Of a stretch of 64,000 nucleotides of DNA, positions 11,149-58,105 are shown piece by piece. The DNA is from an uncultured Lachnospiraceae bacterium (GTDB lineage Bacteria > Bacillota > Clostridia > Lachnospirales > Lachnospiraceae). The position numbers and the translations under genes are program-made. Under the pieces are notes generated by a model, which was given only the letters and a program-made list of their open reading frames with translations, made no database searches and was not told the origin of the DNA. Where the stretch lies: positions 1-64,000 of the forward strand of contig CADAOZ010000012.1 of NCBI GenBank assembly GCA_902789735.1, written 5' to 3'. The stretch's first letter is position 1. Each line of letters begins with the position of its first letter.

Positions 11149-11781
11149 ATGGGTTTTTCAGATAAATCCTGCAGTGAATTTGTGGAAGTACTCGCGACGA
11201 AAGCGCCGGTGCCCGGCGGCGGCGGGGCGTCCGCTATGGTGGGGGCGCTTGCGACGGCCCTTGGAAATATGGTCGGCAGCCTGACAGTCGGCAAGAAAAA
11301 ATACGCCGCAGTAGAAGAGGAAATGCGGGCATTAAAAGACCGGTGTGACCGTCTGCAGAAGGATTTCCTGCATTTGGTGGAAAGAGACGCGGAGGTATTC
11401 GAACCGCTTGCCAGGGCTTACAGCATGCCTAAAAATACAGAAGAAGAGAAGGCGGAGAAAGCCAGGGTCATGGAAATCGTGCTGCGTGACGCATGCAGTG
11501 TTCCCATGGAGATCATGGAGAAATGCTGCGAAGCCATAGACATCATCGCTGTCTTTGCCGAAAAAGGATCTGTGATCGCGATTAGCGACGCGGGCGTAGG
11601 GGCCGCCTTTGCCAAAGCGGCATTACAGGGCGCCAGCCTGAATGTCTATATCAATACCAAATCCATGGCGGACAAAGCTCTGGCAGCAGAGCTGAACGCC
11701 AGATGCGACCGGATGCTGGAAGAGTATACCGGTAAAGCGGACGCGATATTTGACAGTGTTTTAGGACGGCTGAAGAAATAA
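11149..11781 (+). CDS. Cyclodeaminase/cyclohydrolase family protein (FchA-like)
   Basis: A 210-aa all-helical protein of the formiminotransferase-cyclodeaminase family. The glycine-rich folate loop 'APVPGGGGASAMVGALATAL' is at residues 19-38. 'DAGVGAAFAKAALQGASLNV' near the C-terminus is also typical. Stand-alone members include the methenyl-THF cyclohydrolase FchA of acidogenic clostridia, which interconverts 5,10-methenyl-THF and 10-formyl-THF. ATG 11149 follows GGAGG by 10 bases; an upstream in-frame start at 11116 is less likely. It is followed, after a repeat block, by folD. Because that FolD lacks cyclohydrolase residues, a cyclohydrolase role here is attractive. Confidence 0.85.
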   Translation: MGFSDKSCSEFVEVLATKAPVPGGGGASAMVGALATALGNMVGSLTVGKKKYAAVEEEMRALKDRCDRLQKDFLHLVERDAEVFEPLARAYSMPKNTEEEKAEKARVMEIVLRDACSVPMEIMEKCCEAIDIIAVFAEKGSVIAISDAGVGAAFAKAALQGASLNVYINTKSMADKALAAELNARCDRMLEEYTGKADAIFDSVLGRLKK

Positions 11782-11901
11782 GCGCAGGATTTATAAGCGC
11801 TGGAGTTATATGCACGGGATCTATAAGTACGGGATTTGTATGCACGGGATCTATAAGCGAGGGATTAATAAGTACGGGATTTATAAACACGGGATCTAAG
11901 A
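11782..11901. repeat. Eight imperfect 15-bp tandem repeats between fchA-like gene and folD
   Basis: The spacer is filled by eight consecutive 15-base units with core GGGATYTATAAG, beginning directly after the stop codon; the first two units are the most divergent. The stop itself (ATAAGCGC) is echoed in the following unit (TATAAGCGC). Units 3 and 5 are identical. The block ends 16 bases before the folD start and leaves its ribosome site outside. Confidence 0.9.
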
Positions 11902-11917
11902 GAGAAAGGATACATTA

Positions 11918-12772
11918 ATGGCGAAACGGTTATCTGGAAAAGAAGTGACAGCGGCTTTAAACGCCAGGATCAGGGCGAACGTGGAGACATGCAGAGCCCA
12001 TGGCGTGGAACCTACCTTATGCATGGTCCGGGTCGGGGATAATCCGAGCGACATGTCTTATGAAAGAGGGGCTGCGAAACGCTGTGAGACCCTGGGCGTT
12101 GCCTGTAAGCAGGTGCATTTGCCTGAAGATGTGTCCCAGGATGAGCTCCTGTCTGTCATAGAGGATGTTAATCAGGATCCCGCCATCCACGGCCTCCTGC
12201 TGTTCCGGCCGCTGCCGAAGCATCTGGATCAGGCTCTGATTGAAAATGCCCTGGATCCGGCCAAAGATGTGGACTGCATGACAGATTTATCCATGTCCGG
12301 CGTCTTTACGGGCAAGCAGATCGGCTTCCCGCCCTGTACGCCCCAGGCCTGCATGGAGATCCTTGACCATTATGGCTATGACTGCACCGGCAAAAAGGCG
12401 GTCGTCATCGGCAGGAGCCTGGTCGTCGGCAAGCCCGCCGCAATGATGCTGATCAAGAAGAACGCTACGGTCACGATTTGCCATACAAGGACCAAAGATA
12501 TGCCCGCGGTCACCAGAGACGCGGACCTGATTATTGTCGCGGCAGGACGTGCCGGTGTGATCGGCGCGGATTATGTCCGGGAAGGACAGACCATCATCGA
12601 TGTCGGCATCAATGTGAACGCGGAAGGGAAACTGTGCGGTGACGTGGATTTCGCGGCAGTAGAGCCTGTTGTAGACGCCATAACACCGGTCCCCGGCGGA
12701 GTGGGAACGGTAACAACATCTGTTCTGGTCGGACATGTGGCAGACGCGGCGTTGAAGACACTGGGCGCATGA
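11918..12772 (+). CDS. folD: FolD-type methylenetetrahydrofolate dehydrogenase, variant active site
   Basis: A 284-aa FolD. Cofactor motifs are intact: 'VVIGRSLVVGKPAAMML' for NAD(P), 'TPVPGGVGTVTT' near the C-terminus and 'KDVD' before the middle. The substrate-side YxxxK motif reads Tyr48-E-R-G-Ala52, so the lysine used for cyclohydrolysis is missing. The usual 'VQLPLP' reads 'LFRPLP', so the conserved Gln is Phe. Lysine mutants of human MTHFD keep dehydrogenase and lose cyclohydrolase, so this FolD is probably dehydrogenase only. The neighbouring FchA-like protein could complete the pathway between methylene- and 10-formyl-THF. Confidence 0.88.
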   Translation: MAKRLSGKEVTAALNARIRANVETCRAHGVEPTLCMVRVGDNPSDMSYERGAAKRCETLGVACKQVHLPEDVSQDELLSVIEDVNQDPAIHGLLLFRPLPKHLDQALIENALDPAKDVDCMTDLSMSGVFTGKQIGFPPCTPQACMEILDHYGYDCTGKKAVVIGRSLVVGKPAAMMLIKKNATVTICHTRTKDMPAVTRDADLIIVAAGRAGVIGADYVREGQTIIDVGINVNAEGKLCGDVDFAAVEPVVDAITPVPGGVGTVTTSVLVGHVADAALKTLGA

Positions 12773-12841
12773 TTGCCGTGAATAAATAACAGAAAAGAAA
12801 AGCTAAGCTAACCATAGAGCTGAGAATAGAACAAAAACAAT

Positions 12842-12882
12842 TTGAACCCCTCACCGAGTTTTTGATATGGTGAGGGGTTCAA
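12842..12882. terminator. Bidirectional terminator between folD and the serine hydrolase gene
   Basis: TTGAACCCCTCACC (12842-12855) pairs perfectly with GGTGAGGGGTTCAA (12869-12882). Read on the minus strand it is followed by TTGTTTTTG, so it mainly ends the minus-strand serine hydrolase transcript. It can also act for folD. Confidence 0.8.
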
Positions 12883-12917
12883 GTGTATTCTTCATGAAAT
12901 ACCGGATCTTTGCCGGA

Positions 12918-14435
12918 TCACCAGTCCCCGGATGTATCTCCAGGGTTGAAGTAGTCATATACAATCGAGGAGATGTTGGAAATCTCCCTGACAGCACTGC
13001 CTTCGGACCGGTTTTCCTCCGACATGACGATCAGGACGTAATCGCAGCCGTCTGACCAGACGATCGCGGAGTCATTCTGAATATCGCTCAGTTCGCCGGT
13101 CTTATTGGCACAGACTGTACCGTAGGGCAGGCCGGAAGGAATCTTCTGCCGGTGCTCCTGATTGAGCATCAGGTTTTCCAGCCGCTCGGAAGCGTCCGCG
13201 GAGACGTAAGTCCTGTGATACACACGGTCCAGTACATCGCCGACTTCGGAAACAGTCGAAAAGTTGGAATATCCTACGGAAGATACTGCCTTTGATACAG
13301 CCAGTTTGCGTTCTGTCTGCTTGTAGCCCTCTGACTGGATAAAGGCGTTGACCAGGTCGATGCCCTTGTCCTGATTGCCGTGGCCCAGGGCAGTTTCCAG
13401 ACCGATCCAGGCTGTGTTGCTGCTTCTGGAGATCATGGAGCTCAGATATCCGCTGTTGGAGGAGGTATCTTCTACCGCTCCGTCCTCAATGGCCCGCAGA
13501 TAAGTGCCGGCGACAAACAGCTTGATCAGCGACGCGGAGCACATATGGGAATCGTTGATGGCAATTTCCTGTCCGGTATCCAGGCATTTGACATAGACGG
13601 CCCAGTTATTGGACTGGCGGCCAAGCTCCTGTTCCAGCTTTTCTTTCAGCTTTGTCATCTCAGGGATCGCTGCAGTGTCATCAAAAACGACTTCCTCCTG
13701 CAGATCCTCATACAGCGATTGGTAAGTCTTCTCCAGGATCTGATAAGCGGACGCCTGCGTGATCGGTTCTCCCGGACGCAGCATGTCATCTTCACCGGTT
13801 TCTATGATTCCTGCGGCGGAGAGAGTATCAATCGCTTCGTCCGCGTAGTCACTGATCATCTGGCTGTCCGACCAGGTTACAGCCTGACCGTCGGTCTGGA
13901 GCTCCAGGCCGGCACTGTTCAGCGCCCTGTACAGGATCATAATAAAATCTTCCTTGCTGATCGTGTCATTGGGGGCGAATTCCGTATCTGTCCGGGGATA
14001 GATCAGGTGCAGGCTGCTGCCCCAGTTGATATAGGCAGTCAGATCCTGATCCGCGCTGACATCTGTCCATTGGGCGGCTGCCGCAGTCATGTTGGTATCC
14101 GCATGGAACAACTGACCGATCGCGGCGATGGCCTCCGCACGTGTTACAGGCGTTTCCACGCTTTCAGAAATGACCGAGACGTCGGGAGACTGCAGAAGTA
14201 CTGCGTTGTCTGCACGGAATATGGCAGCGGCGCCATCCGCAGACATGGAAATGATTTCCTCTGATACAGATGTCTGCTCCTTCTGACCGGTCGGGGACGT
14301 GGACGCGTTCTCCGCGGATTCAGTCTGGTCTGTTGTATCCGTTGATGCCCGCAGATGGAGAAATGGTCCGGTTATAAGCAGAGACGCTATGACAAGGCAT
14401 AAGCCTGTATTTAGAATGCGTTTCTTATTTCTCAC
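12918..14435 (-). CDS. Secreted serine hydrolase, class A beta-lactamase-like, with SLH repeats
   Basis: 505 aa: signal segment at 6-29, Ser/Thr-rich linker to about 90, S-layer-homology-like repeats at about 96-240, then a penicillin-binding/beta-lactamase class A fold. Catalytic motifs are visible: SxxK at Ser302-Lys305, SxN at Ser338-Asn340 and KTG at 445-447. SLH domains bind secondary cell-wall polymers, so the enzyme is probably held at the wall. Class A-like folds here may be beta-lactamases, peptidases or inactive sensors; the usual Glu166 region is not obvious, so antibiotic hydrolysis is uncertain. The start is a GTG with no clear ribosome site, so the N-terminus is provisional. Confidence 0.82.
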   Translation of the reverse strand: MRNKKRILNTGLCLVIASLLITGPFLHLRASTDTTDQTESAENASTSPTGQKEQTSVSEEIISMSADGAAAIFRADNAVLLQSPDVSVISESVETPVTRAEAIAAIGQLFHADTNMTAAAAQWTDVSADQDLTAYINWGSSLHLIYPRTDTEFAPNDTISKEDFIMILYRALNSAGLELQTDGQAVTWSDSQMISDYADEAIDTLSAAGIIETGEDDMLRPGEPITQASAYQILEKTYQSLYEDLQEEVVFDDTAAIPEMTKLKEKLEQELGRQSNNWAVYVKCLDTGQEIAINDSHMCSASLIKLFVAGTYLRAIEDGAVEDTSSNSGYLSSMISRSSNTAWIGLETALGHGNQDKGIDLVNAFIQSEGYKQTERKLAVSKAVSSVGYSNFSTVSEVGDVLDRVYHRTYVSADASERLENLMLNQEHRQKIPSGLPYGTVCANKTGELSDIQNDSAIVWSDGCDYVLIVMSEENRSEGSAVREISNISSIVYDYFNPGDTSGDW

Positions 14436-14622
14436 AGTCAGTTTAAAATATCTTCGAAAGTTGATCGTTTACGTATACAGGTTATAGCATCACAATCTCT
14501 TTTCTAACATAAAATTAAGCAAATGTAAATGTATACTGGAAATCTGTGAAATTGCAGGGAGTAAATGACCGTACTAATCCGGTGACAGGGTTTAGAGTAC
14601 AAAAAAACAATCTGTCAACAGC

Positions 14623-14653
14623 GAAAAAAGACCCTCTGCCGGAGCAAAGGGCC
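14623..14653 (-). terminator. Terminator of the 76-aa minus-strand gene
   Basis: On the minus strand GGCCCTTTGC pairs with GCAGAGGGTC (two G-T pairs) and runs into six T residues. It lies 65 bp past the stop at 14718. Confidence 0.8.
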
Positions 14654-14717
14654 TTTTATAAGGAATTCCATATTTAATTGTCTGATGTCAGATCTGTCCT
14701 GATCCGGGCTTCTGCGC

Positions 14718-14948
14718 TCAGGCTGCCTTTCTGGAATAAACTGCCAGGACGCTGCCGGATACCTCACCGGTCTTGACCATACCGCACGCAGTCAGCTCGG
14801 CGTGTGCCTTTGTCATGGTACCGAACATGACCTTCTCACCGGTTTCTACGTTATTTTCATAAACAACTGCTTCTACACGTCCGCAGACAGGATAGACCTT
14901 AACTACAGGGTTTTCTTTATTCTTAAGTGTTTCTTTGATTGTCATCAT
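14718..14948 (-). CDS. Small conserved-looking protein of unknown function
   Basis: A 76-aa soluble, Lys/Val-rich protein with two Cys (in 'VYPVCGRVEA' and 'ELTACGMVKTG'). I do not recognise a family. It is probably real: GGAGG stands 7 bases before ATG 14948, codon use matches the neighbours, no other gene overlaps, and a well-formed terminator follows. 'VVKVYPVCGRVEAVVYENN' suggests a small beta-rich fold. Its neighbours do not indicate a function. Confidence 0.7.
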   Translation of the reverse strand: MMTIKETLKNKENPVVKVYPVCGRVEAVVYENNVETGEKVMFGTMTKAHAELTACGMVKTGEVSGSVLAVYSRKAA

Positions 14949-15005
14949 TTTTATACCTCCGCCGGACTATATCCGGTGCTTCATAACCGTACGCTTCCGC
15001 CTTCT

Positions 15006-15197
15006 TTATGATCTTTCTGAGTTCTGAGGCGGGGACGGTTTAACTGTAATTGTGCCGCAGGCTTTTCTTTTAGTTTTCTTTTCGTTTCTGAATGCTTGTT
15101 TTACTTTTTGCCTTTTTGTTTTACCATTTTCAGCCGGCTTTACGCCAGGCATTTCTGCGGCAGGTTTCTGATCTTCCGTGTTCTGATCCGCTTTCAT
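15006..15197 (-). CDS. Possible small lysine-rich peptide
   Basis: An open frame of 63 aa from ATG 15197 (a GTG at 15236 would add 13 aa). The product is highly basic and Pro/Lys-rich ('KTKRQKVKQAFRNEKKTKRK') with no hydrophobic segment. The ribosome site is weak, and low-complexity composition can create such frames by chance. It is kept as a tentative gene because nothing else occupies the stretch. Confidence 0.3.
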   Translation of the reverse strand: MKADQNTEDQKPAAEMPGVKPAENGKTKRQKVKQAFRNEKKTKRKACGTITVKPSPPQNSERS

Positions 15198-15481
15198 TAT
15201 TGATGATTGCCTTTCTTTTTCTTTCGCGGTCAGCACGGTTTCAAATTTTCAGATTCAATATTTAAACATAACCATTTTTAACGTTCAGCTTATTATCGAC
15301 GTCGTTTGCAGCTGATGGATGGATTTTATAGGCAGACGGCAAATAAGTCCAGTCATTTGCCATACAAAAAATAGCCAAATATTGCTGGAAAACAGGGATG
15401 ATAAAAAAGTCTCAAATATCTGATAATTATGTACATTAACAAATAATTACAAATTTATCGAGAAAATTTTCAGAATATTCC

Positions 15482-15510
15482 TTGACGGAACCATAAATCA
15501 ATGCTACAAT
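15482..15510 (+). promoter_or_regulatory. Strong isolated sigma-A promoter
   Basis: TTGACG (15482-15487), 17 bases, TACAAT (15505-15510), preceded by an A/T-rich tract. Transcription would begin near 15517 and meet a terminator at about 15680. No annotated gene lies between them. Confidence 0.75.
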
Positions 15511-15618
15511 TTGACTATAGAAAAGAGGAGCGAAGAAATTTTATATCCAGTCTGGGTTGATATAGTACTATTTATTCAGTAACAAATCTGGAAATACGCA
15601 GAAATGGAGGACACGTAA

Positions 15619-15645
15619 ATGAGATTGTTGGAATTTCACCCGTGA
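15619..15645 (+). CDS. 8-aa mini-ORF MRLLEFHP
   Basis: ATG 15619 follows GGAGG by 8 bases and reads eight codons (MRLLEFHP) to TGA. The stop codon overlaps the start of the terminator stem (from 15643), so a ribosome at the end of the frame would mask the 5' arm of the hairpin. Such an arrangement is typical of translated leaders, but no downstream co-directional gene exists. It could be a real micropeptide or a regulatory stall site. Confidence 0.4.
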   Translation: MRLLEFHP

Positions 15646-15680
15646 GCTGCCCGATGAGTAAGTCGGGCAGCTCTTTTTTT
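15643..15680 (+). terminator. Intrinsic terminator of the short transcript
   Basis: GAGCTGCCCGA pairs perfectly with TCGGGCAGCTC (about 15643-15653 and 15662-15672) and is followed by eight T residues. Confidence 0.9.
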
Positions 15681-15762
15681 TGTGTGTTTTTCAGCGATTT
15701 TGGAAGAAGTATTCTTTTTGGAAATAAACCTGCCGGAAATATAATCCTGTCAGGAATAGGAA

Positions 15763-15795
15763 CAGCCGCCGGACCCGATATGGATCCGGCGGCTG
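15763..15795 (-). terminator. Hairpin after nadE
   Basis: CAGCCGCCGGA (15763-15773) and TCCGGCGGCTG (15785-15795) form an 11-bp GC-rich stem 40 bp past the nadE stop on the minus strand. The following minus-strand sequence (TTCCTATTCC) is only moderately U-rich. Confidence 0.6.
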
Positions 15796-15834
15796 CTTCA
15801 TGAAATTGCTATTTCATTATAATAAGCTTCATGA

Positions 15835-16632
15835 TTACCATTTGCTGATATCTCTGCGGTCCGCGTCTTCAGCGGGCTCGTACCTGGGCAGCAGGCGGAG
15901 CTTATGCATGTTCAGGCGGTGCAGTCTGTCGATTTTCTTTTTGTGCTCTTCATTCTCACAGACGCCGGTCAGGATATAGTGATCCAGTTCCGCGTAGGTG
16001 AATCCCAGCTTATCTTCATCTGACAATCCGCTGAGGCCGTCGGAAGGAGTCTTCTGTACCAGCTGCTCCGGCAGGCCCAGGCAGGCGCCGACCTGCAGGA
16101 CCTCATGGACCATCAGGCCTGACAGGGGGCTGAAATCACCGGCAGCGTCGCCGTACTTGGTGGAATAGCCGACATAGTCTTCCGACATGTTGCAGGTATT
16201 TACGACACGTCCGCCCTGAGGAAGCATCTGACCGACCGCGTATAAGGTAGACATCCTGAGACGGGGGGCCAGATTGATCTTTGCTTCTCTTGCCATTTCA
16301 TCCGTACCGGTGATCTCTTTCAGGTCGGCATTGGTGGAGAGCATCTTCTCCATGGCATTGTAGGCTTCCCCGATATTCATTTCCACATAAGGGATACCGA
16401 TCGATTCAACGAGCAGTCTGGAATCCGAGATATCGCTCTGGACGCCGTTGGGCATCAGTACGCCGAGGACTCTGTCCTTTCCCAGCGCCTGGGCGCAGAG
16501 GGCTGCGGCCACACTGGAATCCTTGCCGCCGGATATACCGATGACAGCGGTGCAGGACGGACCGTTTTCCTCAAAGTACTTTTGAATCCACGCGATGATT
16601 TCATTTTTTGTCTTTTCAGGATCTCTAAGCAT
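15835..16632 (-). CDS. nadE: Ammonia-dependent NAD+ synthase
   Basis: 265 aa, the length of the short, ammonia-dependent NadE that lacks the glutaminase domain. The P-loop pyrophosphatase motif SGGKDSS is at residues 34-40, and 'YSTKYGDAAGDFSPL' with 'KTPSDGLSGLSDEDKLGFTY' (read in two parts) are NadE-specific. It adenylates nicotinic acid adenine dinucleotide and transfers ammonia to give NAD+. ATG 16632 is preceded by GGAGG-like AATGGAGGAAAAAG. It lies 56 bp downstream of the phosphohexomutase gene on the same strand and may share its transcript. Confidence 0.95.
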   Translation of the reverse strand: MLRDPEKTKNEIIAWIQKYFEENGPSCTAVIGISGGKDSSVAAALCAQALGKDRVLGVLMPNGVQSDISDSRLLVESIGIPYVEMNIGEAYNAMEKMLSTNADLKEITGTDEMAREAKINLAPRLRMSTLYAVGQMLPQGGRVVNTCNMSEDYVGYSTKYGDAAGDFSPLSGLMVHEVLQVGACLGLPEQLVQKTPSDGLSGLSDEDKLGFTYAELDHYILTGVCENEEHKKKIDRLHRLNMHKLRLLPRYEPAEDADRRDISKW

Positions 16633-16688
16633 CTTTTTCCTCCATTATTACATATATAAATAGCTGCCGGCGGTACCGGTCCGCAGGC

Positions 16689-18383
16689 TTATTCTACCCG
16701 GTTCACCCTTGTCAGGACGTCCTCTTTGATCTTGCTGTTGACTTCCAGGGCTTCCTCACGGCTGTTTCCGATGGTGTAGAAGTAGAACTTGATCTTGGGC
16801 TCTGTGCCGGAAGGACGGATGGCGAACCAGCTTCCGTTATCCAGGAAATAACGCAGAACATTGGAAGCGGGGATATCTTCATAGCCGTTGATATAGTCGA
16901 TGGTCTTTACCACTTTATAGCCGGCGGCTTCCGTGATCGGTTCCTCACGCAGGCTGTCCATCATGCGGCCGATCCGCTTGGAGCCGGCGATGCCTTCCAG
17001 GATCAGGTTGGGTTCATCCTCGGCTGCGTAGCCGTATTTCTCATAGATATCGTTCAGGACATCCCAGAGGGTCTTGCCCTGTTTCCGGTAATAGGCGGCC
17101 GCTTCCGCCACCAGCATGCCGGCACTGATGCCGTCCTTGTCGCGGATGTCTTCGCAGGCCGCGTAGCCGACGGATTCCTCATAGCCGAACAGGTAGACAT
17201 AATTGTTCTTATGCAGGAAGGGGATCCGGCCGCAGATGTTCTTGAAACCGGTCAGGGCTTCATACATCTTGACACCGTAGGACTCCGCGATGTCGGAGGT
17301 CAGGGTACTGGTGACAATGGATTTGACCATGGCGCCGTTGGACGGAAGGGTGCCGGCGGTCTTACGGCCTTCCAGAATATAATTGACCAGGATATAGCCG
17401 GTCTGGTTGCCGTTCAGGGGGACGTATTCGCCCTTGTCATCGCGAATCTCAATGGCGAAACGGTCGGAATCGGGGTCCGTTGCCATCAGCAGCTCGGCGC
17501 CCACCTGGCGGCCCAGTTCCTCACTCATCTTGAAAGCGGCAGGGCTTTCGGGGTTGGGATAGCCGACCGTGGTGAAGTCGGGATCCGGATCCGCCTGTTC
17601 CGGGACGATGTGCCAGTTGGTAAAGCCCCGGTCCTCCAGCATCTGACGGAAAGGAATGGAGCCGGCACCGTTCAGGGGCGTATAAACCAGGGGGATGGAC
17701 AGATCCAGCTCGTCGCCGCTGTGGATGGCCAGGCTCTCGATCTTGTCCAGATAGGCCCTGTCATATTCCGGTCCCAGTACGACAATCTTGCCTTCCCGGA
17801 CGCCTTCGTCAAAATTCATCTTTTTGATACCGCTGAAATAGTCCAGTACCTTAATGCAGTCATAGATGCCGTCCGCCACGGTGCTAGAGACCTGGCAGCC
17901 GTCCTCCCAGTAGACCTTGTAGCCGTTGTAATCCTTGGGATTATGGGAAGCGGTGATGTTGATGCCGGAAACGGTGCCCAGGCTCCGGATCAGGTAGGCC
18001 AGCTGGGGGGTAGGCCGCAGATCCGGGAAGACATAGGCTTTGATCCCGTTGGCCGCCAGAATGCCCGCGGCCAGCTGGCTGAAAGCCTTGGAGAAATGCC
18101 GGCAGTCATGGGCGATGATGACGCCCTTTGCGGCCGCTTCGGGGCCCTGCTTCAGGATATAATCCGCCAGTCCCTGGGTGGCTCTGCCGACCACGTTGGC
18201 ATTCATGCAGTTGGTGCCGGCCTTGAGCTTTCCCCGCAGACCGGCGGTGCCGAAGGCCAGCTCCTGGTAAAAGCGTTCTTCGATCTCGTTCTCGTCGTCA
18301 TAAATGGCGAGCAGTTTCTTATAGAAAGGGCTCTTCTCATCCATGCGTTTGACCCATCTATGGTAGCGCTCTTTTGCGTTCAT
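16689..18383 (-). CDS. Phosphoglucomutase/phosphomannomutase (alpha-D-phosphohexomutase)
   Basis: 564 aa, the size of the long bacterial PGM type (as B. subtilis PgcA). The active-site serine loop 'TASHNPKDYNG' has Ser146, the metal loop 'DPDSDRFAI' follows near 305, and the C-terminal phosphate-binding loop is 'IRPSGTEPKIKFY'. It interconverts hexose 1- and 6-phosphates for glycogen, exopolysaccharide and wall precursor synthesis. 'GTAGLRGK' at the start is the usual domain 1 signature. A second hexosamine mutase (GlmM type) is encoded at 59337, so the two have separate substrates. Confidence 0.93.
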   Translation of the reverse strand: MNAKERYHRWVKRMDEKSPFYKKLLAIYDDENEIEERFYQELAFGTAGLRGKLKAGTNCMNANVVGRATQGLADYILKQGPEAAAKGVIIAHDCRHFSKAFSQLAAGILAANGIKAYVFPDLRPTPQLAYLIRSLGTVSGINITASHNPKDYNGYKVYWEDGCQVSSTVADGIYDCIKVLDYFSGIKKMNFDEGVREGKIVVLGPEYDRAYLDKIESLAIHSGDELDLSIPLVYTPLNGAGSIPFRQMLEDRGFTNWHIVPEQADPDPDFTTVGYPNPESPAAFKMSEELGRQVGAELLMATDPDSDRFAIEIRDDKGEYVPLNGNQTGYILVNYILEGRKTAGTLPSNGAMVKSIVTSTLTSDIAESYGVKMYEALTGFKNICGRIPFLHKNNYVYLFGYEESVGYAACEDIRDKDGISAGMLVAEAAAYYRKQGKTLWDVLNDIYEKYGYAAEDEPNLILEGIAGSKRIGRMMDSLREEPITEAAGYKVVKTIDYINGYEDIPASNVLRYFLDNGSWFAIRPSGTEPKIKFYFYTIGNSREEALEVNSKIKEDVLTRVNRVE

Positions 18384-18697
18384 ACGTATTCTCCTCCCAT
18401 GATTGTTGGATGGCGGCCGCGTGTCCGGACTGCAGTCGGACAGGACCTGTTCCGGATTCCTCCTTTCATTTTACCATTCTTATCCGCCATCTGCGAGAAA
18501 AGTCGTGAAGAATTGCATATATTTTGTGCGGCGGACACATCAAATCTATAAAAAATTAACAAAATTGTAACTAAGAAATGATTCTAATTATCTGAATTAT
18601 GTATATAATAAAGGAAGGGGAACTGGTACTTTTTATAGAAAAACCCAAACCAAAAAAACCCAAACCCAAAACAAAAAGATTTAAGGGAGGTAACACA
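18384..18697. other. Intergenic region with A/T-rich promoter DNA and a low-complexity leader
   Basis: TATAAT at 18604-18609 is a good -10 for the iron alcohol dehydrogenase, but no good -35 is seen. The leader 18640-18676 is a CCCAAA/CCAAAC low-complexity tract that ends 9 bases before the ribosome site. It is open in frame with the dehydrogenase, but the strong GGGAGG at 18685-18690 marks the true start. Confidence 0.5.
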
Positions 18698-19843
18698 ATG
18701 GCAGTAAATCGTTTTGTATTAAATGGGATTTCTTACCATGGACACGGCGCGATCAATGAGATTCCCGGCATCGTCGCTTCCAAGGGCTTCAAAAAGGCTT
18801 TCGTAGCGTCTGACCCGGATCTGGTCAAATTCGGCGTCACCGCCAAGGTCACAGACCTGCTCAAGGCCAACAGCATTGACTTTGAACTGTATTCCGACAT
18901 CAAGCCCAATCCCACGATTGAGAACGTCCAGCACGGCGTTGCGGCTTTCAAGGCTTCCGGCGCGGACTTTATGATCACCATCGGCGGCGGCTCCTCCATG
19001 GACACCGGCAAAGCCATCGGTATCATCATCAACAACCCTGAGTTCGCGGATGTCCGTTCTCTGGAAGGTGTTGCGCCTACCAAGAAGCGCACCGTATTCA
19101 CCATCGCGGTTCCCACCACCGGCGGTACCGGCGCTGAGTCCACCATCAACTACGTCATCACCGACGTGGAGAAGAAGAGGAAATTCGTCTGCGTAGACCC
19201 TAACGATATCCCTGATATCGCAGTCGTAGATCCCGATATGATGTCCTCCATGCCCAAGGGCCTGACCGCTTCCACCGGTATGGATGCCCTGACCCACGCG
19301 ATCGAAGGCTATACCACAGCCGCTGCCTGGGAGCTGGCGGACTGCCTCAACCTGGAGTCCATCAAGCTGATCGGCGCCAACCTCCGCAAGGCGGTTGCCA
19401 ATGATCCCGACGGACGGGAAGGCATGGCTCTGGCACAGTATGTCACTGCAATGGCTTATTCCAACGTTGGTCTTGGTATTGCTCACTCCATGGCACACAC
19501 CCTGGGCGCTGTGTATGACACCCCTCATGGCGTTGCCTGCGCAATGATGCTGCCCATCGTCATGGAATTCAACGCTCCCTGCACCGGCGAGAAGTTCAAA
19601 CACATCGCAGAGGCGCTGGGCGTAGATACCACCGGCATGGATCAGGAGACCTATCGTAAAGCTGCCATCGACGCTGTTCGTCAGCTGTCCATCGATGTAG
19701 GCATTCCGACCAAGCTTGACAAGCTCAAAGAAGAAGATCTGGACTTCCTGTGCGAGTCCGCTGCCGCAGACGCCTGCGCGCCCGGCAACCCCAGACCCGC
19801 TTCTCTGGAAGAGTTCAGAGAGATGTTCAAGAAGCTGATGTAA
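18698..19843 (+). CDS. Iron-containing alcohol dehydrogenase
   Basis: 381 aa, the usual length of class III Fe-ADHs. 'GGGSSMDTGKAIG' binds the NAD(P) pyrophosphate, 'PTTGGTGAESTIN' follows, and the metal ligands fall in 'GMDALTHAIEGY' and 'GIAHSMAHTLGAVYDTPHG' (Asp/His and two His). Members reduce aldehydes to ethanol, butanol or propanediol during fermentation; the exact substrate is not readable. ATG 18698 follows GGGAGG by 7 bases. The gene stands alone with its own terminator. Codon use is highly biased (GCC, GGC, ATC), consistent with high expression. Confidence 0.93.
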   Translation: MAVNRFVLNGISYHGHGAINEIPGIVASKGFKKAFVASDPDLVKFGVTAKVTDLLKANSIDFELYSDIKPNPTIENVQHGVAAFKASGADFMITIGGGSSMDTGKAIGIIINNPEFADVRSLEGVAPTKKRTVFTIAVPTTGGTGAESTINYVITDVEKKRKFVCVDPNDIPDIAVVDPDMMSSMPKGLTASTGMDALTHAIEGYTTAAAWELADCLNLESIKLIGANLRKAVANDPDGREGMALAQYVTAMAYSNVGLGIAHSMAHTLGAVYDTPHGVACAMMLPIVMEFNAPCTGEKFKHIAEALGVDTTGMDQETYRKAAIDAVRQLSIDVGIPTKLDKLKEEDLDFLCESAAADACAPGNPRPASLEEFREMFKKLM

Positions 19844-20013
19844 TAGCTTATGACATCGGAGGACTTTTCGGCGAAGATTGTTTGAGAATTCATTCAGTTT
19901 CTTAATCGGAAAGTATACCGGTAAACATATCAGCGGAGGCTGCTCTTATAATGAAATTGGTCATTTAAGACGGTGTCCCGCAGGTAAGGACATTTAAAAG
20001 TCAAAAACAGTTG

Positions 20014-20050
20014 CTGCCGCCAGAGCTTTTGCTCTGGCGGCAGTTTCTTT
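20014..20050. terminator. Terminator between the alcohol dehydrogenase and the lipoprotein gene
   Basis: CTGCCGCCAGAGC (20014-20026) pairs perfectly with GCTCTGGCGGCAG (20031-20043) around TTTT, followed by TTTCTTTT. On the minus strand TGTTTTTG follows, so it serves both convergent genes. Confidence 0.9.
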
Positions 20051-20106
20051 TATATACTTTCTTTTTTATTTAGTTGTAACCGGCCAGTATTTTTACATTG
20101 TTGTGC

Positions 20107-20904
20107 TTATGGACGCATCACAGCGTCGTTCAGAGTGATGTATTGTCCATCCTCCAGGACCTGCATGACCGGCTCTGAGATGGTTGTCCGCTGATAAAAG
20201 CTGCTCATGTTCCCTCTGGCGTCTGCCGAAACGGAGTAGGAACCGGCCGTGCCTGGACGGCTGCTGCTGATCTCATAGACACCAGGTTCCAGATCTTTGC
20301 CGACCAGATACATGCCTGAGGGATACGTATCGTCGTCCGCTATATAAGGGGGAGCAGCATCCGCAGGGCAGGCAGTTCCTTCGAATTGTACATATTCTCC
20401 TTCACGGATAGTCAGATAGAGGCGATTGTAGAAGCCTATGTCATCAAGGACAGATGACAGGGAACCGCTGTCATCGGAGGTGAGCAGGACTTTGCCCGGG
20501 AACATGCCGGTATCCTGTTCAATCAGGTAAGTTCCTGCCGGAAGGTCGGTACCGGTCAGATAGGTGCCGGCCGGCCAGATGTTTGAACTTTCTGGGGGTT
20601 CGGAAGGCTTAGAAGTTTTGGAAGACCTTGAAGGCTTAGAAGAACTGCCCAGGGTGCTCTGTTCTTCCGGATGTGAAGATGCGTCTGCTGTCATTTCAGT
20701 TGATCCACCGGTTGATGGCCCATCTGAGGATTCATCGGATCTTTTCCCTGAAACGGCCGTGGATGGCGCGGATGGCGTTGATTGGGGACCGCTGTTCTGC
20801 GCAGCTCCGCAGCCGGTCAGGACCAGCAGCCCGGAGACTGCCAGGGAAATGGCAATCGGCCTGGGAATTTCTGGAAAGGCAGACAGTTTTTGGGGTTTGA
20901 ACAT
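20107..20904 (-). CDS. Lipoprotein with duplicated beta-rich repeat, unknown function
   Basis: 265 aa. The signal peptide ends in a lipobox (VLTGC, Cys32). A Ser/Thr/Pro/Lys-rich linker spans about 37-108, rich enough to span the cell wall. Two related modules follow, each opening with 'P(A/S)G.YL.G.DL.(A/P)G.Y' (at 111-126 and 195-210) and ending with 'EG(E)Y..F/L' (169-174 and 251-257). I do not recognise a named family. AGGAGG is 7 bases before ATG 20904. No neighbour explains its job; a surface-ligand role is a guess. Confidence 0.78.
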   Translation of the reverse strand: MFKPQKLSAFPEIPRPIAISLAVSGLLVLTGCGAAQNSGPQSTPSAPSTAVSGKRSDESSDGPSTGGSTEMTADASSHPEEQSTLGSSSKPSRSSKTSKPSEPPESSNIWPAGTYLTGTDLPAGTYLIEQDTGMFPGKVLLTSDDSGSLSSVLDDIGFYNRLYLTIREGEYVQFEGTACPADAAPPYIADDDTYPSGMYLVGKDLEPGVYEISSSRPGTAGSYSVSADARGNMSSFYQRTTISEPVMQVLEDGQYITLNDAVMRP

Positions 20905-21369
20905 AACAATACCTCCTGTTCTAAAGAATGGATAATAATGAGAAATGAGAAATTGAAAATAGAAGTGTGATATATAGGAAACTCCGATTTTTAGGCGGAG
21001 CGAAATGTGGCGAGAGGAATCTTATAGACTGTTTCGTTGCTGTCCACACAGTTGGTAATGCTAAAACGGATTTTTTCGGATTATGAATGCAGGTTAATAA
21101 CAGAAAAGGGATGTGAAAAAGCAAAGAATTGCAAGGAGTACAAAATTCGGCGGATGTGTAGAAAACAGAAGAGATAAAGAAACTTAAAGAAGAAAAAGAA
21201 CAAATAATAATGAAGAAACTTTCGAAGATGCAGATACTCAGGGACAGGAAAGAGATTACGGCAGCCGCGGTTCCATGACCGCGGCTGCGATAAAGATCTG
21301 CATGAAATTATTGGTATATTTAAGGGATTGTATAGGGCTGAACCTCTTAAAGAGGAATCTATAGCAGAC
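20905..21369. other. A/T-rich spacer between lipoprotein and sortase genes
   Basis: No gene is seen. It contains a GC-rich hairpin (21261-21271 with 21278-21288, GCAGCCGCGGT/ACCGCGGCTGC), which could end the minus-strand sortase transcript about 80 bp after its stop. The remaining sequence is A-rich with no clear repeats. Confidence 0.5.
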
Positions 21370-22137
21370 CTATTTGCTTTCAGGAATCGGAATACCCACG
21401 ATGATATACCGGGCATCTTCATACTCATAGGAGCAGGTGGACAGGACCATCAGATGTTCTGCCTTACTGTAGTCATATCTGGACTGAAAGTCTGATTTAG
21501 CGATTGCGTAATCTACAAATTCCCGGAAAGATTCCTCATCCTCAAATAAGCCATAGACAGGCGCTACAGCATTCTCAATAAAACCGGAGATGACATTGAT
21601 CCGGTAGTTGCCCTGCGGCGTCAGGTACCAGATATAGGAATGCTCCTCAAAGTAGGTCTGGTCACTGTATTTATGCAGGGAAGCGAACATGGATCCGTTC
21701 TTCATATGATGACCATAAAGGATCGTAACATAATTACTCAGGTCAGGATTGTTTCTGTAATCCATGAAGATACTGCCGGATGAATTGTACTGGCCGTTCA
21801 GCATGGTATGCAGATAGGTATCGTTGGTCTCTCCCTTCATGACCGGATAATTGATCACGGTATCCGGGGAGTAAATCCAGCCGACCACATCCGGGTTTTC
21901 CGCCTGCAGGCTGGAGAAGTCTATTTCAATGGGACAGGTATCTGAGCCCTCTTCGAGGTCCGCGACCGGTTCCTTATTCACGGTATCTTCTTTTTCTTTA
22001 ACATACTGATCGGCTGCCTGACTGTATTCCGCTGTTCCCGCATGATACTCCAGAAAGATTTTCAGGAGCTGGTACCCGCTGAACAGGAAGATGGCCGTAA
22101 AAATCACAAGCAGGATTTTTGTCAGAATATTCTTCAC
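21370..22137 (-). CDS. srtB: Class B sortase
   Basis: 255 aa with an N-terminal membrane anchor (about 5-28) and a sortase beta-barrel. The catalytic triad is visible: His143/144 in 'ILYGHHMKNGSMF', Cys235 in 'VLSTCSYEYED', and Arg243. The 'IFMDYRNNPDLSNY' loop and the insertion before the Cys are class B features. The enzyme would anchor surface proteins or pilins to peptidoglycan by transpeptidation. No protein with an obvious C-terminal sorting signal is encoded nearby, so its substrate is elsewhere. Confidence 0.92.
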   Translation of the reverse strand: MKNILTKILLVIFTAIFLFSGYQLLKIFLEYHAGTAEYSQAADQYVKEKEDTVNKEPVADLEEGSDTCPIEIDFSSLQAENPDVVGWIYSPDTVINYPVMKGETNDTYLHTMLNGQYNSSGSIFMDYRNNPDLSNYVTILYGHHMKNGSMFASLHKYSDQTYFEEHSYIWYLTPQGNYRINVISGFIENAVAPVYGLFEDEESFREFVDYAIAKSDFQSRYDYSKAEHLMVLSTCSYEYEDARYIIVGIPIPESK

Positions 22138-22228
22138 TTCTATACCTCATCATTCCGCGGTGGATTCTGTCTGCCGCTTCAGGAAGTATAGCATTTCCGG
22201 CACTGTAAGAGCAATCCCCGAGAGAATC

Positions 22229-22324
22229 TGAATTAACTGCCTGAATTAACTGCCGGTTCACGAGCTCAGAGGTGCCGGACAGGCCTGGCGATCAGGTTCA
22301 CGAGCTCAGAGGTGCCGGACAGGC
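22229..22324. repeat. Direct repeats upstream of the carboxypeptidase gene
   Basis: A 13-base unit (CTGAATTAACTGC) occurs twice in tandem from about 22229, followed by a 30-bp direct repeat starting GGTTCACGAGCTCAGAGG at 22255-22284 and 22295-22324. The GAGCTCAGAG core recurs in the large repeat block at 61.2-61.6 kb. Confidence 0.85.
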
Positions 22325-22433
22325 TCGGCTATAATTAACATACTAAGCATGTCAACCCTGCCCCGTGTGCGTACAATTTGAATTGGGCGATTATGTCTTG
22401 TGGCAGGGGCCGCGTTCCGGGACCTGTTCTTAA

Positions 22434-22462
22434 TTGACAGGAATAGCCCTGTGTGACAAAAT
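22434..22462 (+). promoter_or_regulatory. Promoter of the D-Ala-D-Ala carboxypeptidase gene
   Basis: TTGACA (22434-22439), 17 bases, CAAAAT (22457-22462). Just upstream a longer stem is possible between CCCTGCC near 22355 and GGCAGGGG near 22402. Confidence 0.6.
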
Positions 22463-22479
22463 ATATCTGATTTGGGCAT

Positions 22480-22526
22480 GGACGCCTATTTTATAGGATG
22501 CCTATGTATAGGATACCTATTTCATA
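22480..22526. repeat. Three 15-16 bp tandem repeats in the dacF-type leader
   Basis: Three consecutive units of the form GGAYRCCTATNNNATA occupy 22480-22495, 22496-22510 and 22511-22526. They lie downstream of the predicted promoter, in the untranslated leader, and end about 50 bases before the start codon. Confidence 0.8.
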
Positions 22527-22577
22527 TGAAGGGGAAGCCGTACGGTGTGAGGGCCGGACGGCAGAAAGGACAATGGT

Positions 22578-24854: not shown

Positions 24855-24947
24855 AAGAGAAATGGAATGATCAGGAACGGAAGGCCGGATACGAAAGACC
24901 AGTAACCAAAAACAGAACCAAAGAACAGAAACCGGAGAACGTAACCT

Positions 24948-29800: not shown

Positions 29801-29902
29801 GCGGCAGCGAGGGAATCCATCAGCAAAAAGGATCCCACGGCAAAAAAGGCAGCAGCAAGGGAATCCATCAACAAAAGGATTTCACAGTAAAAAGGCAGCA
29901 AT
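29801..29902. repeat. Two ~47-bp repeats between the DUF5721 gene and pyrB
   Basis: GCRGCAGCRAGGGAATCCAT...AAAAAG occurs at 29801-29848 and 29849-29894 with a partial third start (GCAGCAAT). Unlike other repeat blocks here, the unit does not copy the upstream gene end. Confidence 0.8.
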
Positions 29903-30904: not shown

Positions 30905-31015
30905 GCCATACAGGCTGTCCGGCGAAAATGGACGCAGAGGCAGGCCATACAGGCTGTCCGGCGAAAAAGGACGCAGAGGCAGGCCATACAGGCTTTCTGC
31001 CAAAAAGGGCAGCAT
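30905..31015. repeat. Three 39-bp tandem repeats in the pyrB-pyrI spacer
   Basis: GCCATACAGGCTGTCCGGCG begins at 30905 and 30944, with a diverged third copy at 30983; the period is 39 bp. The period is a multiple of three, so a frame from ATG 30896 stays open through all units and encodes a 13-residue repeat (RQAIQAVRRK-type), but it lacks a ribosome site. Confidence 0.9.
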
Positions 31016-31070: not shown

Positions 31071-31517
31071 ATGCTGAATGTAGGAAAGATTGAAGAAGGC
31101 CTGGTCCTGGACCATATCAAGGCCGGCAAAAGCATGGTGATCTACAAACATCTGGGACTGGATAAGCTGGAATATCCTGTCGCGATCATCAAGAACGCCC
31201 GCAGCAATGCCATGGGCAAAAAGGACATTCTCAAGGTCGAATGCGATGTGGACGCCCTGAATCTGGATGTCATCGCTTTTATCGACCCGGACATTACCGT
31301 CAACATCATCCGCGACGGGGATATCGTGGAGAAAAAGCAGCTGAGCATGCCCAGGATGGTCACCAACGTGATCCGCTGTACCAATCCCCGCTGCATTTCC
31401 ACCATTGAGCAGGAACTGCCCCAGGTCTTTTATCTGGCGGACGGCAGGCGCAAGATCTACCGCTGCAGATACTGCGATGAGAAGTATACCGAGAAAGGCT
31501 CCAAGAGCTGGTATTGA
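31071..31517 (+). CDS. pyrI: Aspartate carbamoyltransferase regulatory subunit
   Basis: 148 aa. The allosteric domain occupies about 1-95 ('LDHIKAGKSMVIYKHL'), and the zinc domain has Cys103, Cys108, Cys132 and Cys135, the four ligands that join it to PyrB. It confers nucleotide control on aspartate carbamoyltransferase. AGAAAGGATA precedes ATG 31071. The 3' end of the gene (codons for TEKGSKSWY and stop) is the first unit of a tandem repeat. Confidence 0.95.
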   Translation: MLNVGKIEEGLVLDHIKAGKSMVIYKHLGLDKLEYPVAIIKNARSNAMGKKDILKVECDVDALNLDVIAFIDPDITVNIIRDGDIVEKKQLSMPRMVTNVIRCTNPRCISTIEQELPQVFYLADGRRKIYRCRYCDEKYTEKGSKSWY

Positions 31518-31608
31518 TCCGGGTGAAAAAATACCGGGAGGCTCCAGGAGCTGGTACTGAGCTGGGAAAAAAATACCGGGAAAGGCTCCGGGAGCTGGTA
31601 TTGATCCG
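31488..31608. repeat. Three-unit repeat made from the 3' end of pyrI
   Basis: Units begin at 31488, 31533 and 31575 (42-45 bp). The first is coding: ACC GAG AAA GGC TCC through TGG TAT TGA. Units 2 and 3 keep the GGCTCC..GAGCTGGTA.TGA sequence, including the TGA, with a few substitutions. They are non-coding copies in the spacer. Confidence 0.9.
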
Positions 31609-48667: not shown

Positions 48668-48689
48668 TACAGCCAGGGAGTAAAAGAAA

Positions 48690-55879: not shown

Positions 55880-55885
55880 AAGACC

Positions 55886-56950
55886 ATGGCGGCGAAAAAG
55901 AAGTCAGAACCTTCCTTTCTGGAGTTACAGAAACAATTGAATACAGAACTCAAAGAAGGACAGTTCCGCCAATGCTATCTGCTCTGCGGCAGCCAGGCTT
56001 ATCTGCGCGGCCAGAACCGGGACAAGCTGGAAAAGTATCTGCTGGGCGACGGCGACCGGATGAATGTCTCCGCCTATAAAGGGGCGGGCCTGAAGATCGA
56101 GCAGATCATAGACCAGGCCGATACCCTGCCCTTTTTCGCGGACAGGCGGGTGATCATTCTGGAGAATACCGGTTTTCTGGGAAAGAGCAGGCCGGAAATC
56201 TCCGCCATGTCGGACCGGCTGGCCGCCTATCTGCCCAAGGCGCCGGACACCACTTTCTGGATCTTTAACGAGGAGTCGGTCGATAAACGGAAAAAGCTCT
56301 ACAAGGCCATCAGGGACAGGGGACTGATCCTTCCCTGTGAGAACCTGGACGACAGGACCCTCCGGTCCTGGACGGCCGGCCTGTTCAAGACCAGGGGGGT
56401 GCAGATCAACGCCCGCAATCTGGATTATTTTCTGTCCAGGACCGGCACGGATATGTTCAATATCCTGACCGAAGCGGAAAAGCTGGCTGCCTATACCTGT
56501 CAGCAGGGCGTCGTGGAGGCCCGGGATATCGAGGCGGTATGCAGTATACATCTGGAGGACCGGATCTTCGATATGATCGACGCGGTCACGGCCGGAAATG
56601 TGGATACCGCCCTGGCCATGTATATGGAACTGATCGGCCTGCAGACGGCCCCTCAGCCCATCCTCGCCCTGATCGAGCGGCAGCTGCGGATTCTTCTGCA
56701 GGTAAGGGAGCTGTCCGCCAGCCGGATGGATTACAGCGAGATCGCCAGAAGAACAGGGCAGAACGCCTATTTCGTCAAAAGTAAATATCTGCCTGCCGCC
56801 CTGCGTTTTCGGGAAAAAGCCCTGGAGGACGGGCTCAGGTCCTGCGTGCAGGCGGATCAGGATTATAAATCGGGGCTGATCTCCGACCGCCTGGCGGTGG
56901 AGATGGTCCTGGTAAAACTGAGCGGAGGTGTACCGGCCCATGGAAAATGA
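55886..56950 (+). CDS. holA: DNA polymerase III subunit delta
   Basis: 354 aa, usual HolA length. 'QCYLLCGSQAYLRGQNRDKL' opens the AAA-like domain 1, 'DTTFWIFNEESVDKRKKLYK' is typical of domain 2, and the C-terminal collar domain includes 'ALIERQLRILLQVRELS'. Delta opens the beta sliding clamp within the clamp loader. The Walker A motif is degenerate, as expected for delta. The end overlaps mutY by 11 bp. Confidence 0.92.
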   Translation: MAAKKKSEPSFLELQKQLNTELKEGQFRQCYLLCGSQAYLRGQNRDKLEKYLLGDGDRMNVSAYKGAGLKIEQIIDQADTLPFFADRRVIILENTGFLGKSRPEISAMSDRLAAYLPKAPDTTFWIFNEESVDKRKKLYKAIRDRGLILPCENLDDRTLRSWTAGLFKTRGVQINARNLDYFLSRTGTDMFNILTEAEKLAAYTCQQGVVEARDIEAVCSIHLEDRIFDMIDAVTAGNVDTALAMYMELIGLQTAPQPILALIERQLRILLQVRELSASRMDYSEIARRTGQNAYFVKSKYLPAALRFREKALEDGLRSCVQADQDYKSGLISDRLAVEMVLVKLSGGVPAHGK

Positions 56951-57998
56951 CCATTTGGCAGTCCTTCTGCTGGACTGGTACGACAAAGAGGGGAGGACCC
57001 TGCCCTGGAGGACAGATCCTTCCCCTTATCATGTATGGATCTCTGAGATCATGCTGCAGCAGACCAGGGTGGAAGCTGTAAAGGGCTATTATGAACGGTT
57101 CCTGCGGGCCCTGCCCGATATCGAAAGTCTGGCGGAGGCCTCGGAGGACCTGTATCTGAAGCTCTGGGAAGGCCTGGGCTATTACAGCAGGGTCAGGAAC
57201 CTGCACAAAGCCGCCTGTGTGATCATGGAGGAGCATGGGGGCCGTATGCCGGAAACGGCGGCGGAACTAAGAAAGCTCCCCGGAATCGGACCCTATACAT
57301 CCGCGGCCATTGCTTCCATCGCGTTCGGAGAGCGGATCCCGGCCATAGACGGCAACCTGCTGCGGGTCTTTGCCAGGATGACAGCCTGGCAGGAGAATAT
57401 CAAAACGCCCGCGTCGGCGTCCCGGGCAGGCGATTATTTCAGCAGTATCATGCCGGCGGACAGGCCCGGGGATTTCAACCAGGCCCTGATGGATCTGGGC
57501 GCCATGATCTGCCTGCCCGGAGGACTGCCCCGCTGTGAGGAATGTCCCTGGGCAGAAGCCTGCGTGGCACGGCAGCAGGGGATTGAGAAGGAACTTCCCA
57601 AGATGCCCCCGAAAGCAGCAAAAAAGATCGAGGATAAGACAGTCTTTCTGATCCGGTCGGGCAGCAGGATCATGATCCGCAAACGGCCGGCCCGGGGTCT
57701 GCTGGCAGGCATGTATGAGTTCCCTTCCGCAGCGGGTCATCTGGATGAAAAGGAGGCGGCCGCCTGGCTGCGGTCCATGGGGATCGAAGCGGTCAGGATC
57801 CGTAAACTGCCGGAAGCCAGACATGTCTTCACCCATAAGGAATGGCATATGACCGGCTATGAAGTCATGGCGGACGAGCTCAGTGCCCGGATTCCGGGCA
57901 AAGGGATCTTCCCGGCAGAGACCGAAGCCATCCGCCTCCAATATCCTGTCCCGTCCGCCTACGCGGTCTATAAGGAGACCGCCGGGATTGGCCGCTGA
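56940..57998 (+). CDS. mutY: A/G-specific adenine glycosylase
   Basis: 352 aa from ATG 56940 (a GTG at 56928 is possible). 'WISEIMLQQTRVEAV' carries the catalytic Glu36; the HhH is 'LRKLPGIGPYTSAAIASIAF'; catalytic Asp137 is in 'AIDGNLLRVFAR'. The Fe-S ligands are Cys191, 199, 202 and 208, with seven rather than six residues between the first two. A NUDIX-like domain follows ('LLAGMYEFPSA'), which recognises 8-oxoG. It removes adenine mispaired with 8-oxoguanine. The 3' end is repeated in the spacer. Confidence 0.93.
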   Translation: MENDHLAVLLLDWYDKEGRTLPWRTDPSPYHVWISEIMLQQTRVEAVKGYYERFLRALPDIESLAEASEDLYLKLWEGLGYYSRVRNLHKAACVIMEEHGGRMPETAAELRKLPGIGPYTSAAIASIAFGERIPAIDGNLLRVFARMTAWQENIKTPASASRAGDYFSSIMPADRPGDFNQALMDLGAMICLPGGLPRCEECPWAEACVARQQGIEKELPKMPPKAAKKIEDKTVFLIRSGSRIMIRKRPARGLLAGMYEFPSAAGHLDEKEAAAWLRSMGIEAVRIRKLPEARHVFTHKEWHMTGYEVMADELSARIPGKGIFPAETEAIRLQYPVPSAYAVYKETAGIGR

Positions 57999-58105
57999 CG
58001 GCGGAAAGAACATGGGCCAACCTCCGGGATTGTCCGCCTGACGGCGGAAAGAACCTGGGCTAATCGCCGGGATTGTACGCTGACGGTGGAAAACGCGGGC
58101 ATCAG
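57981..58105. repeat. Three ~42-bp repeats starting in the last codons of mutY
   Basis: Units start near 57981, 58023 and 58065. Each reads CCGGGATTG(G/T)(C/A)CGC.TGACGG.GGAAA. The first contains the mutY stop codon TGA (57996-57998), and the TGA is kept in the two downstream copies. Confidence 0.88.

Follow-up and report, generated by a model that had tools for sequence, protein, structure and literature searches.

A REP-like palindrome family and spacer minisatellites at gene ends in the genome of an uncultured Lachnospiraceae bacterium

Bacterial minisatellites, also referred to as variable number tandem repeats (VNTR), have periods of about 10–70 bp, are mostly intergenic and shift in length between close relatives. 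Among dispersed repeats, the repetitive extragenic palindromic sequences (REPs) include the superfamilies GTAG and CGTC; according to parts of the text of Di Nocera et al. (2013; PMC3733652), the ends of GTAG REPs supply TAG stop codons, and CGTC REPs occur without a dedicated transposase and form head-to-tail dimers to a negligible extent only. Passages of a further article, which cites an earlier study, state that E. coli REPs located at most 15 nt from a stop codon stall ribosomes and lower translation (PMC12306157), and passages of another one that the mycobacterial interspersed repetitive unit (MIRU) inserts at start codons with its inner open reading frame coupled to the gene (PMC12548453). 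For Lachnospiraceae, the search listings showed no study of REPs or minisatellites. The present analysis deals with tandem repeats that begin at the stop codons of five genes in a window of 64,000 nucleotides (contig CADAOZ010000012.1, positions 1 to 64,000, assembly GCA_902789735.1) from an uncultured Lachnospiraceae bacterium. These repeats are probably accounted for by a REP-like family, here named F1, together with ordinary spacer minisatellites, and a special stop-anchored duplication process is then not needed. A suspected new mutational process would thereby give way to two more ordinary, testable ones.

The initial annotation of the window had described five gene spacers starting with short tandem repeats whose first unit contains the upstream stop codon. 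Tandem Repeats Finder and reading of the sequence confirmed the five arrays and the position of the stop in each first unit:

11778 to 11895, plus strand: array behind the fchA-like gene, 15 bp x 7.9, its first base 1 nt upstream of the FTCD_C cyclodeaminase gene's TAA
26337 to 26451, plus strand: vWA array, 32 bp x 3.6, its first base 12 nt upstream of the DUF2201/VWA-like gene's TAA
28616 to 28752, plus strand: maf array, 35 bp x 4.0, a row of four F1 palindromes, the first of which provides with its TGA the maf stop
31486 to 31608, plus strand: pyrI array, 43 bp x 2.8, repeating about the last nine pyrI codons, the TGA and a short tail
57978 to 58092, plus strand: mutY array, 43 bp x 2.7, its first base 18 nt upstream of the MutY-like gene's TGA

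The genes in front of the arrays end at 11781, 26351, 28618, 31517 and 57998, and the arrays overlap their last 3–32 nt. Pfam backs the neighbouring genes with a cyclodeaminase domain (gene at 11116), a DUF2201/VWA-like match (24948), PyrI (31071) and the HhH-GPD and NUDIX pair of a MutY-like protein (56928). The name maf was taken over from the earlier note; when compared here with relatives, the Maf protein ended roughly where members of its family usually do. All five spacers lie between co-directional genes, and the stop was kept in 13 of the 15 later copies that were aligned by script, both in agreement with the initial annotation.

The window belongs to a draft genome of 2.51 Mb in 37 contigs, the assembly being 93.6% complete. 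The main sample of 864 kb consisted of the window and 40 further stretches taken from contigs with F1 matches; in the extended sample of 1.24 Mb, 20 stretches were added to give the window and 60 stretches. These last 20, as well as most contigs of the sister genome, were picked for F1 matches. Genes were called with a home-made hexamer caller, the called starts being uncertain. In the null model for array placement, a unit was allowed to overlap a gene end by at most one unit, because such a duplication keeps the protein intact. The sister genome, G041 (Lachnospiraceae assembly RUG578), is the nearest named relative found, a 94% sister, and is 88–97% identical to the window across much of 24–57 kb. 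The set of other genomes was completed by G008, G004, G016, G015 (29 kb only) and 79 pyrI loci in three GC groups, which are mostly, not wholly, labelled Lachnospiraceae and include some from genomes of the same genus.

The claim that the repeat sequences are unrelated held for four of the five arrays: no match to the fchA-like unit was detected elsewhere in the 864-kb sample, and the vWA and mutY arrays were locus-specific within it as well. The maf unit, on the other hand, matched 48 sites of its own genome at the first search and 57 when a two-unit query was used. The consensus of the family, F1, is a 28-bp imperfect palindrome, TGAACCGGGCGTCAGACTTCCCGGTTCA, which is bounded by TGA on one side and TCA on the other. 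A profile of this palindrome detected 111 units in 50 clusters in 1.24 Mb of the own genome and, in 391 kb of G041, 16 clusters comprising 40 units, densities which are biased upwards because the stretches were not random but selected for F1; as the profile was seeded with the palindrome, strongly decayed units were missed. The family is extragenic, with 0 of 50 clusters lying by more than 60% inside a called gene. Adjoining units are arranged head to tail in 58 of 61 cases. In 100 full units, stem pairs 1–6 are formed in 99–100 and pairs 7–9 in 67–82. The inner GTCAGACT is conserved like the stem in 73 units of 28 bp, a hint that F1 may be recognised as DNA more than as an RNA hairpin, as far as a motif-seeded profile can indicate. 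The view that the five arrays share a process and not an element thus fails for maf, whose array is a dispersed REP-like palindrome concentrated at stops.

Proximity to stop codons was evident in both genomes. Twelve of 49 own clusters lie at most 5 nt from a stop (null 2.3) and 19 at most 15 nt (null 4.9), while starts have no cluster at this distance (null 5.6). Of the 16 clusters of G041, 10 are found at most 15 nt from a stop (null 1.7), and one is equally close to a start (null 1.4). This pattern holds irrespective of the stretches selected, clusters near a stop numbering 10 of 21 in the first set of 40 stretches and 8 of 27 in the added set of 20, plus the one in the window. Among the 49 own clusters, 4 have the TGA at the edge of the unit as the exact stop (expected 0.26); leaving out the window, the count is 3 of 48 (expected 0.25), and for the clusters of G041 it is 3 of 16 (expected 0.09). 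By eye, a half unit or one detected incompletely was seen to supply its TGA as the stop at three more own loci and at one more in G041. At one locus G041 uses the F1 TGA and the decayed copy of the own genome reads TAA, suggesting that the stop outlives the unit. At two loci (ybeY and L300:3500) the reading frame continues into F1, where an inner TGA terminates it. The gene at L118:16050–16741, presumably YbeY-like, is about 20 residues longer than in four of the five relatives compared, and an F1 unit supplies both its final residues and its stop.

Among 62 genomes of the genus, F1 matches were obtained in two, the own genome and one that appears to be G041. F1 is present in both genomes at all 12 comparable loci, a count subject to the same selection of stretches, and the number of profile hits, which miss half units, differs at 10 of them. 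Six of the 12 are in own stretches that were not picked locus by locus, one of these in the window, and 37 of the 50 own clusters are without counterpart in the G041 sample. Shared loci with changed unit numbers make the spread of F1 look old and the turnover of its units current. F1 would thus have been at its loci already in the common ancestor of the own species and its sister, with a preference for sites just after or on stops where it sometimes provides the TGA, and would now change mainly by head-to-tail gain and loss of units, probably through slippage or unequal recombination. Its earlier spread would have occurred by transposition. The involvement of a RAYT transposase was considered and rejected: a search for Y1_Tnp at an E-value of 0.1 gave no match in the two carrier assemblies, both of which are drafts so that the absence is uncertain, and the domain is present in 15 of the 25 genomes of the relatives search, F1 being found in none of the 24 other than the own.

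The position of F1 could also be explained if the element recognised TGA as its target, so that insertion would always leave a stop. F1 opens with TGA in both orientations, its edge TGA coincides with stops more often than expected as described above, and TGA accounts for 16 of the 21 stops near F1, compared with 574 of 1023 background stops. However, the share near F1 counts F1's own stops, 28 of 49 clusters have no stop within 30 nt, F1 has no known empty site, and survival of those insertions which happened to leave a stop would explain the data equally well, the inner TGA at ybeY and L300:3500 being cases in point. A TGA target is consequently regarded as unlikely.

Similar doubt applies to the idea that the arrays are selected elements of the 3' untranslated region (3'-UTR), namely hairpins serving to shield mRNA, to slow ribosomes at termination or to stop transcription. 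Good folding is seen in some units (pyrI, z -2.8), foldability is a little higher in the local units than in controls (mean z -0.54 versus -0.24 and -0.22; P 0.046 and 0.023), and the 19 own F1 clusters close to stops occupy the position from which E. coli REPs are described to lower translation (PMC12306157, in part). The folding shift is nevertheless marginal, and no unusual folding is shown by the units of vWA (-0.4), mutY (+0.3) and 29804 (-0.4); on this ground, hairpins were rejected as a shared cause of the local arrays. An intrinsic terminator function of F1 was rejected too, since TTTT occurs within 10 nt in just 2 of the 26 clusters located close behind stops, which makes them unlike intrinsic terminators. 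Selection on 3'-UTRs is further weakened by the arrays in divergent spacers, by the 15 of 49 F1 clusters that have no stop on either side, by the alteration of several arrays in the sister species and by the irregular formation of stem pairs 7–9.

For the arrays as a whole, avoidance of starts is the main signal. Among the 234 arrays of the 864-kb sample (score of at least 50), a stop codon lies inside 20 and a start inside 2. The first 40 stretches outside the window gave 14 stop crossings versus 12.3 expected and 1 start crossing versus 9.4; once starts were barred to all arrays, the expectation for stops in these stretches rose to 13.7. With the 205 spacer arrays outside the window from all own sources, starts were crossed 2 times versus about 15 expected, and a recount with 206 arrays yielded 35 stop crossings and 2 start crossings. 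The asymmetry was kept when starts were rechosen by ribosome-binding site, with 1 start crossing versus 7.3 expected for strong sites and 1 versus 8.0 for weak sites. Likewise, no start crossing was detected in the other genomes, where about 11 were expected (5.5 in G041, 4.5 in the 79 pyrI loci and 1.0 in G004 and G008 together).

The following scheme would account for these figures. Small tandem duplications abound in the spacers of this genome, and a duplicated unit across a stop would be tolerated, as the first stop is kept and the protein remains intact. A unit duplicated across a start with its ribosome-binding site would create a second start and be removed. Tolerance at gene ends combined with removal at starts would let arrays cross stops at about the expected rate and starts almost never; selection against start duplications would thus be the cause of the avoidance. 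The proposal that local duplication is tolerated only after the stop has in this respect been largely borne out for the locus-specific arrays, where stops are crossed and starts almost never. That such repeats would tune spacing, mRNA stability or readthrough, as the initial annotation also put forward, is conjectural.

Several counts weigh against this reading, and some favour instead a mutational process at or near stops, in which, for instance, terminating ribosomes or transcription–replication conflicts at gene ends would give rise to tandem duplications. In the plain null, the 205 arrays outside the window cross stops 35 times versus 21.7 expected, and the local arrays, among which L290:6103 was counted though F1-like, 26 times versus 17.8 (P 0.016). 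At reliable genes, with a barred zone of 0, 20 or 50 bp ahead of starts, the 30 stop crossings compare with 18.6, 21.6 and 26.2 expected (P 0.004, 0.021 and 0.18), so that the excess fades solely when the pre-start zone is barred; this rescue is weakened because local arrays at most 15 nt from starts are not visibly depleted (11 versus 10.9). Arrays just behind stops are also somewhat too many: 24 local arrays lie at most 15 nt behind a stop versus 17.6 (P 0.054), and 10 arrays of any type with a period of at least 20 lie at most 10 nt behind one versus 4.1 (P 0.010), of which 3 are F1 and 1 belongs to the F2 family described below. Stop crossings reach 13 versus 8.7 in G041 (P 0.063), and in the three GC groups of pyrI loci they amount to 0, 5 and 7 versus 0.4, 4.0 and 3.3, the GC-richest third being in excess (P 0.023). 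The window itself gave 5 versus 2.6 (P 0.075), and is richer than its surroundings, with a stop crossed by 5 of its 17 spacer arrays, compared with 14 of 141 for the first 40 stretches outside it. A further point against the preferred explanation, in its F1 part, is that no F1 empty site was detected, so that insertion itself was unseen.

The excess at stops could be traced to two sources, short periods (local arrays with a period below 20, 12 versus 4.9) and the last 20 stretches, which had been chosen for F1 (local arrays, 15 versus 6.8, against 11 versus 10.9 in the first 40). Local arrays with a period of at least 20, to which three of the four local cases in the window belong, show an insignificant excess (14 versus 12.8 in the plain null, 12 versus 10.6 at reliable genes). 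No stop crossing was seen in G008, G004 and G016 (1.2, 0.1 and 0.0 expected), and G015 was without spacer array. Moreover, the density of arrays is similar in divergent spacers, which hold no gene 3' end (1.04 arrays per kb of spacer, compared with 1.24 in co-directional and 1.50 in convergent ones). A mutational process at stops is hence judged quite improbable. Enrichment at stops over a placement null, as anticipated in the initial annotation, amounts to 1.1–1.6 fold depending on the null for all own sources outside the window and is absent from the first 40 stretches (14 versus 13.7), so that a stop-anchored process is unneeded for most arrays and could add a small effect. Overall, the data correspond to tolerance and start avoidance, beside which a modest, model-dependent excess at stops may remain.

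The locus-specific arrays also offer a view on their origin. Behind pyrI, about the last nine codons and the stop recur twice downstream, and L037, with a PyrI 85% identical and a similar gene end, is without the array. Since the repeated part is the gene's own 3' end, which is array-free in L037, the copies have grown outwards from the gene end. Copy numbers, which the initial annotation had proposed to compare across strains, differ from G041 for two of the three arrays covered: vWA has 3.6 copies here versus about two recognisable by eye in G041, followed by divergence, and maf four F1 units versus three, whereas pyrI has three copies in both genomes with small differences. The comparison covers vWA, maf and pyrI, as the matching contigs stop short of fchA and mutY. 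More broadly, in the 81 of 607 spacers that could be compared with G041, a length change of more than 5 bp was found for 17 of 20 array spacers versus 29 of 44 array-free spacers of at least 60 bp. The arrays thus show the tandem units and the length variation between close relatives of minisatellites, with a moderate contrast given that the controls vary too. Of 80 later copies, 55 still have a stop at the aligned triplet, and agreement is nominally higher in the stop columns, with 87% of cells versus 79% for neighbouring columns.

The lineage is rich in minisatellites but not alone in it. Of the 234 arrays in the main sample, 163 are intergenic and 71 lie inside called genes. Their density outside the window is 270 per Mb, versus 230 in G041, 250 in G008, 100 in G004, 49 in G016, 70 in G015 and 66–144 across the three GC groups of pyrI loci; the span over four same-genus genomes is 49–250. 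Among the intergenic arrays with a period of at least 14, the units of 97 out of 140 were matchless elsewhere in the main sample and 43 were matched, versus 6 with reversed queries. Loss of mismatch repair as the cause of the high density was rejected, a verdict limited to MutS_V, as this domain is present in 21 of 21 genomes (3 matches in the own genome).

Besides F1, two further dispersed families and two arrays that touch no stop were recognised, the stretches outside the window being given by locus:

29804 to 29900, plus strand: array behind the DUF5721 gene, 48 bp x 2.1, starting 57 nt past this gene, touching no stop, locus-specific in the sample
30905 to 31008, plus strand: array 39 bp x 2.7, 13 nt after an aspartate/ornithine carbamoyltransferase gene (pyrB by context)
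61163 to 61634: F2, second dispersed family (arrays 61163 to 61481, plus strand), with core CGACCCCAGAGGTGG and relatives and variants of the AGCTCTGAGG type
L124:4100–4251, L149:3366–3725 and L132:17624–17779: F2 elsewhere, often in arrays
L135:8934–9152, L128:3498–3645, L140:17975–18094 and L124:18097–18249: third family of about 53 bp, with ends CGGCAGACA...TGTCTGCCG

The array at 30905 could be aligned to G041 without length change. F2 is not tied to stops (1 stop crossing versus 1.1–1.4 expected) and, among the 62 genomes of the genus, is strong in the own (16 matches) and the sister genome (19) and weak in 6 more. For the third family, G041 has 7.5 copies at L124 versus 2.9 here. In the spacer 24855–24947, 93 bp with a 13-bp array are found here, and 31 bp with a different 12-bp repeat in G041, where the upstream gene ends slightly differently. 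Positions 4001–23680 of the window have no high-identity match in G041, just short stretches at 71–88%; contig C112 of G041 ends at the edge matching this region, so that the lack of a match reflects either an assembly gap or a true difference. Screening of the window against Rfam at the gathering threshold gave zero matches, and a search of it for tRNA and tmRNA genes found none.

That F1 might be a RAYT-less mobile palindrome which targets TGA stops, brings its own stop in either orientation and is therefore harmless, with unit turnover tuning mRNA termination or decay, is a combination that we hold to be rather improbable. F1 and ordinary spacer minisatellites remain the preferred explanation. 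The measured asymmetry, with spacer duplications crossing stops and hardly ever starts, belongs in the nulls of bacterial minisatellite surveys, and F1 provides Lachnospiraceae with a REP-like family whose own end encodes a stop codon.

How these repeats relate to the described systems can be stated as follows. The local arrays share the traits of bacterial minisatellites and differ from them just in their high density here. Like REPs in the broad sense, F1 is a short imperfect palindrome present in many intergenic copies, often close behind gene 3' ends; its size of 28 bp falls in the range of 20–40, its copies are dispersed, pairs and clusters are common, few species carry it, and its ends give stop codons, TGA in F1 and TAG in GTAG REPs. 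F1 differs from GTAG REPs by the lack of GTAG at an end (as judged from the consensus and 13 single copies with their flanks) and by the lack of a Y1_Tnp match in either carrier assembly. It differs from CGTC REPs in that its CGTC lies between the arms and not at an unpaired end, and in its head-to-tail arrangement, which is negligible for CGTC dimers (Di Nocera et al., 2013; PMC3733652, in part). The main text of that paper has no mention of Clostridi-, Lachnospir- or Firmicutes. As with MIRU, the repeats are dispersed at gene junctions where the flanking gene is still able to work; unlike MIRU, F1 avoids starts (none of 49 own clusters and one of 16 in G041 within 15 nt) and its 28-bp unit opens with TGA. 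With the E. coli REPs near stops, F1 shares the position, and the comparison made here is one of position. F1 is accordingly classed as REP-like in the broad sense and as neither a GTAG nor a CGTC REP.

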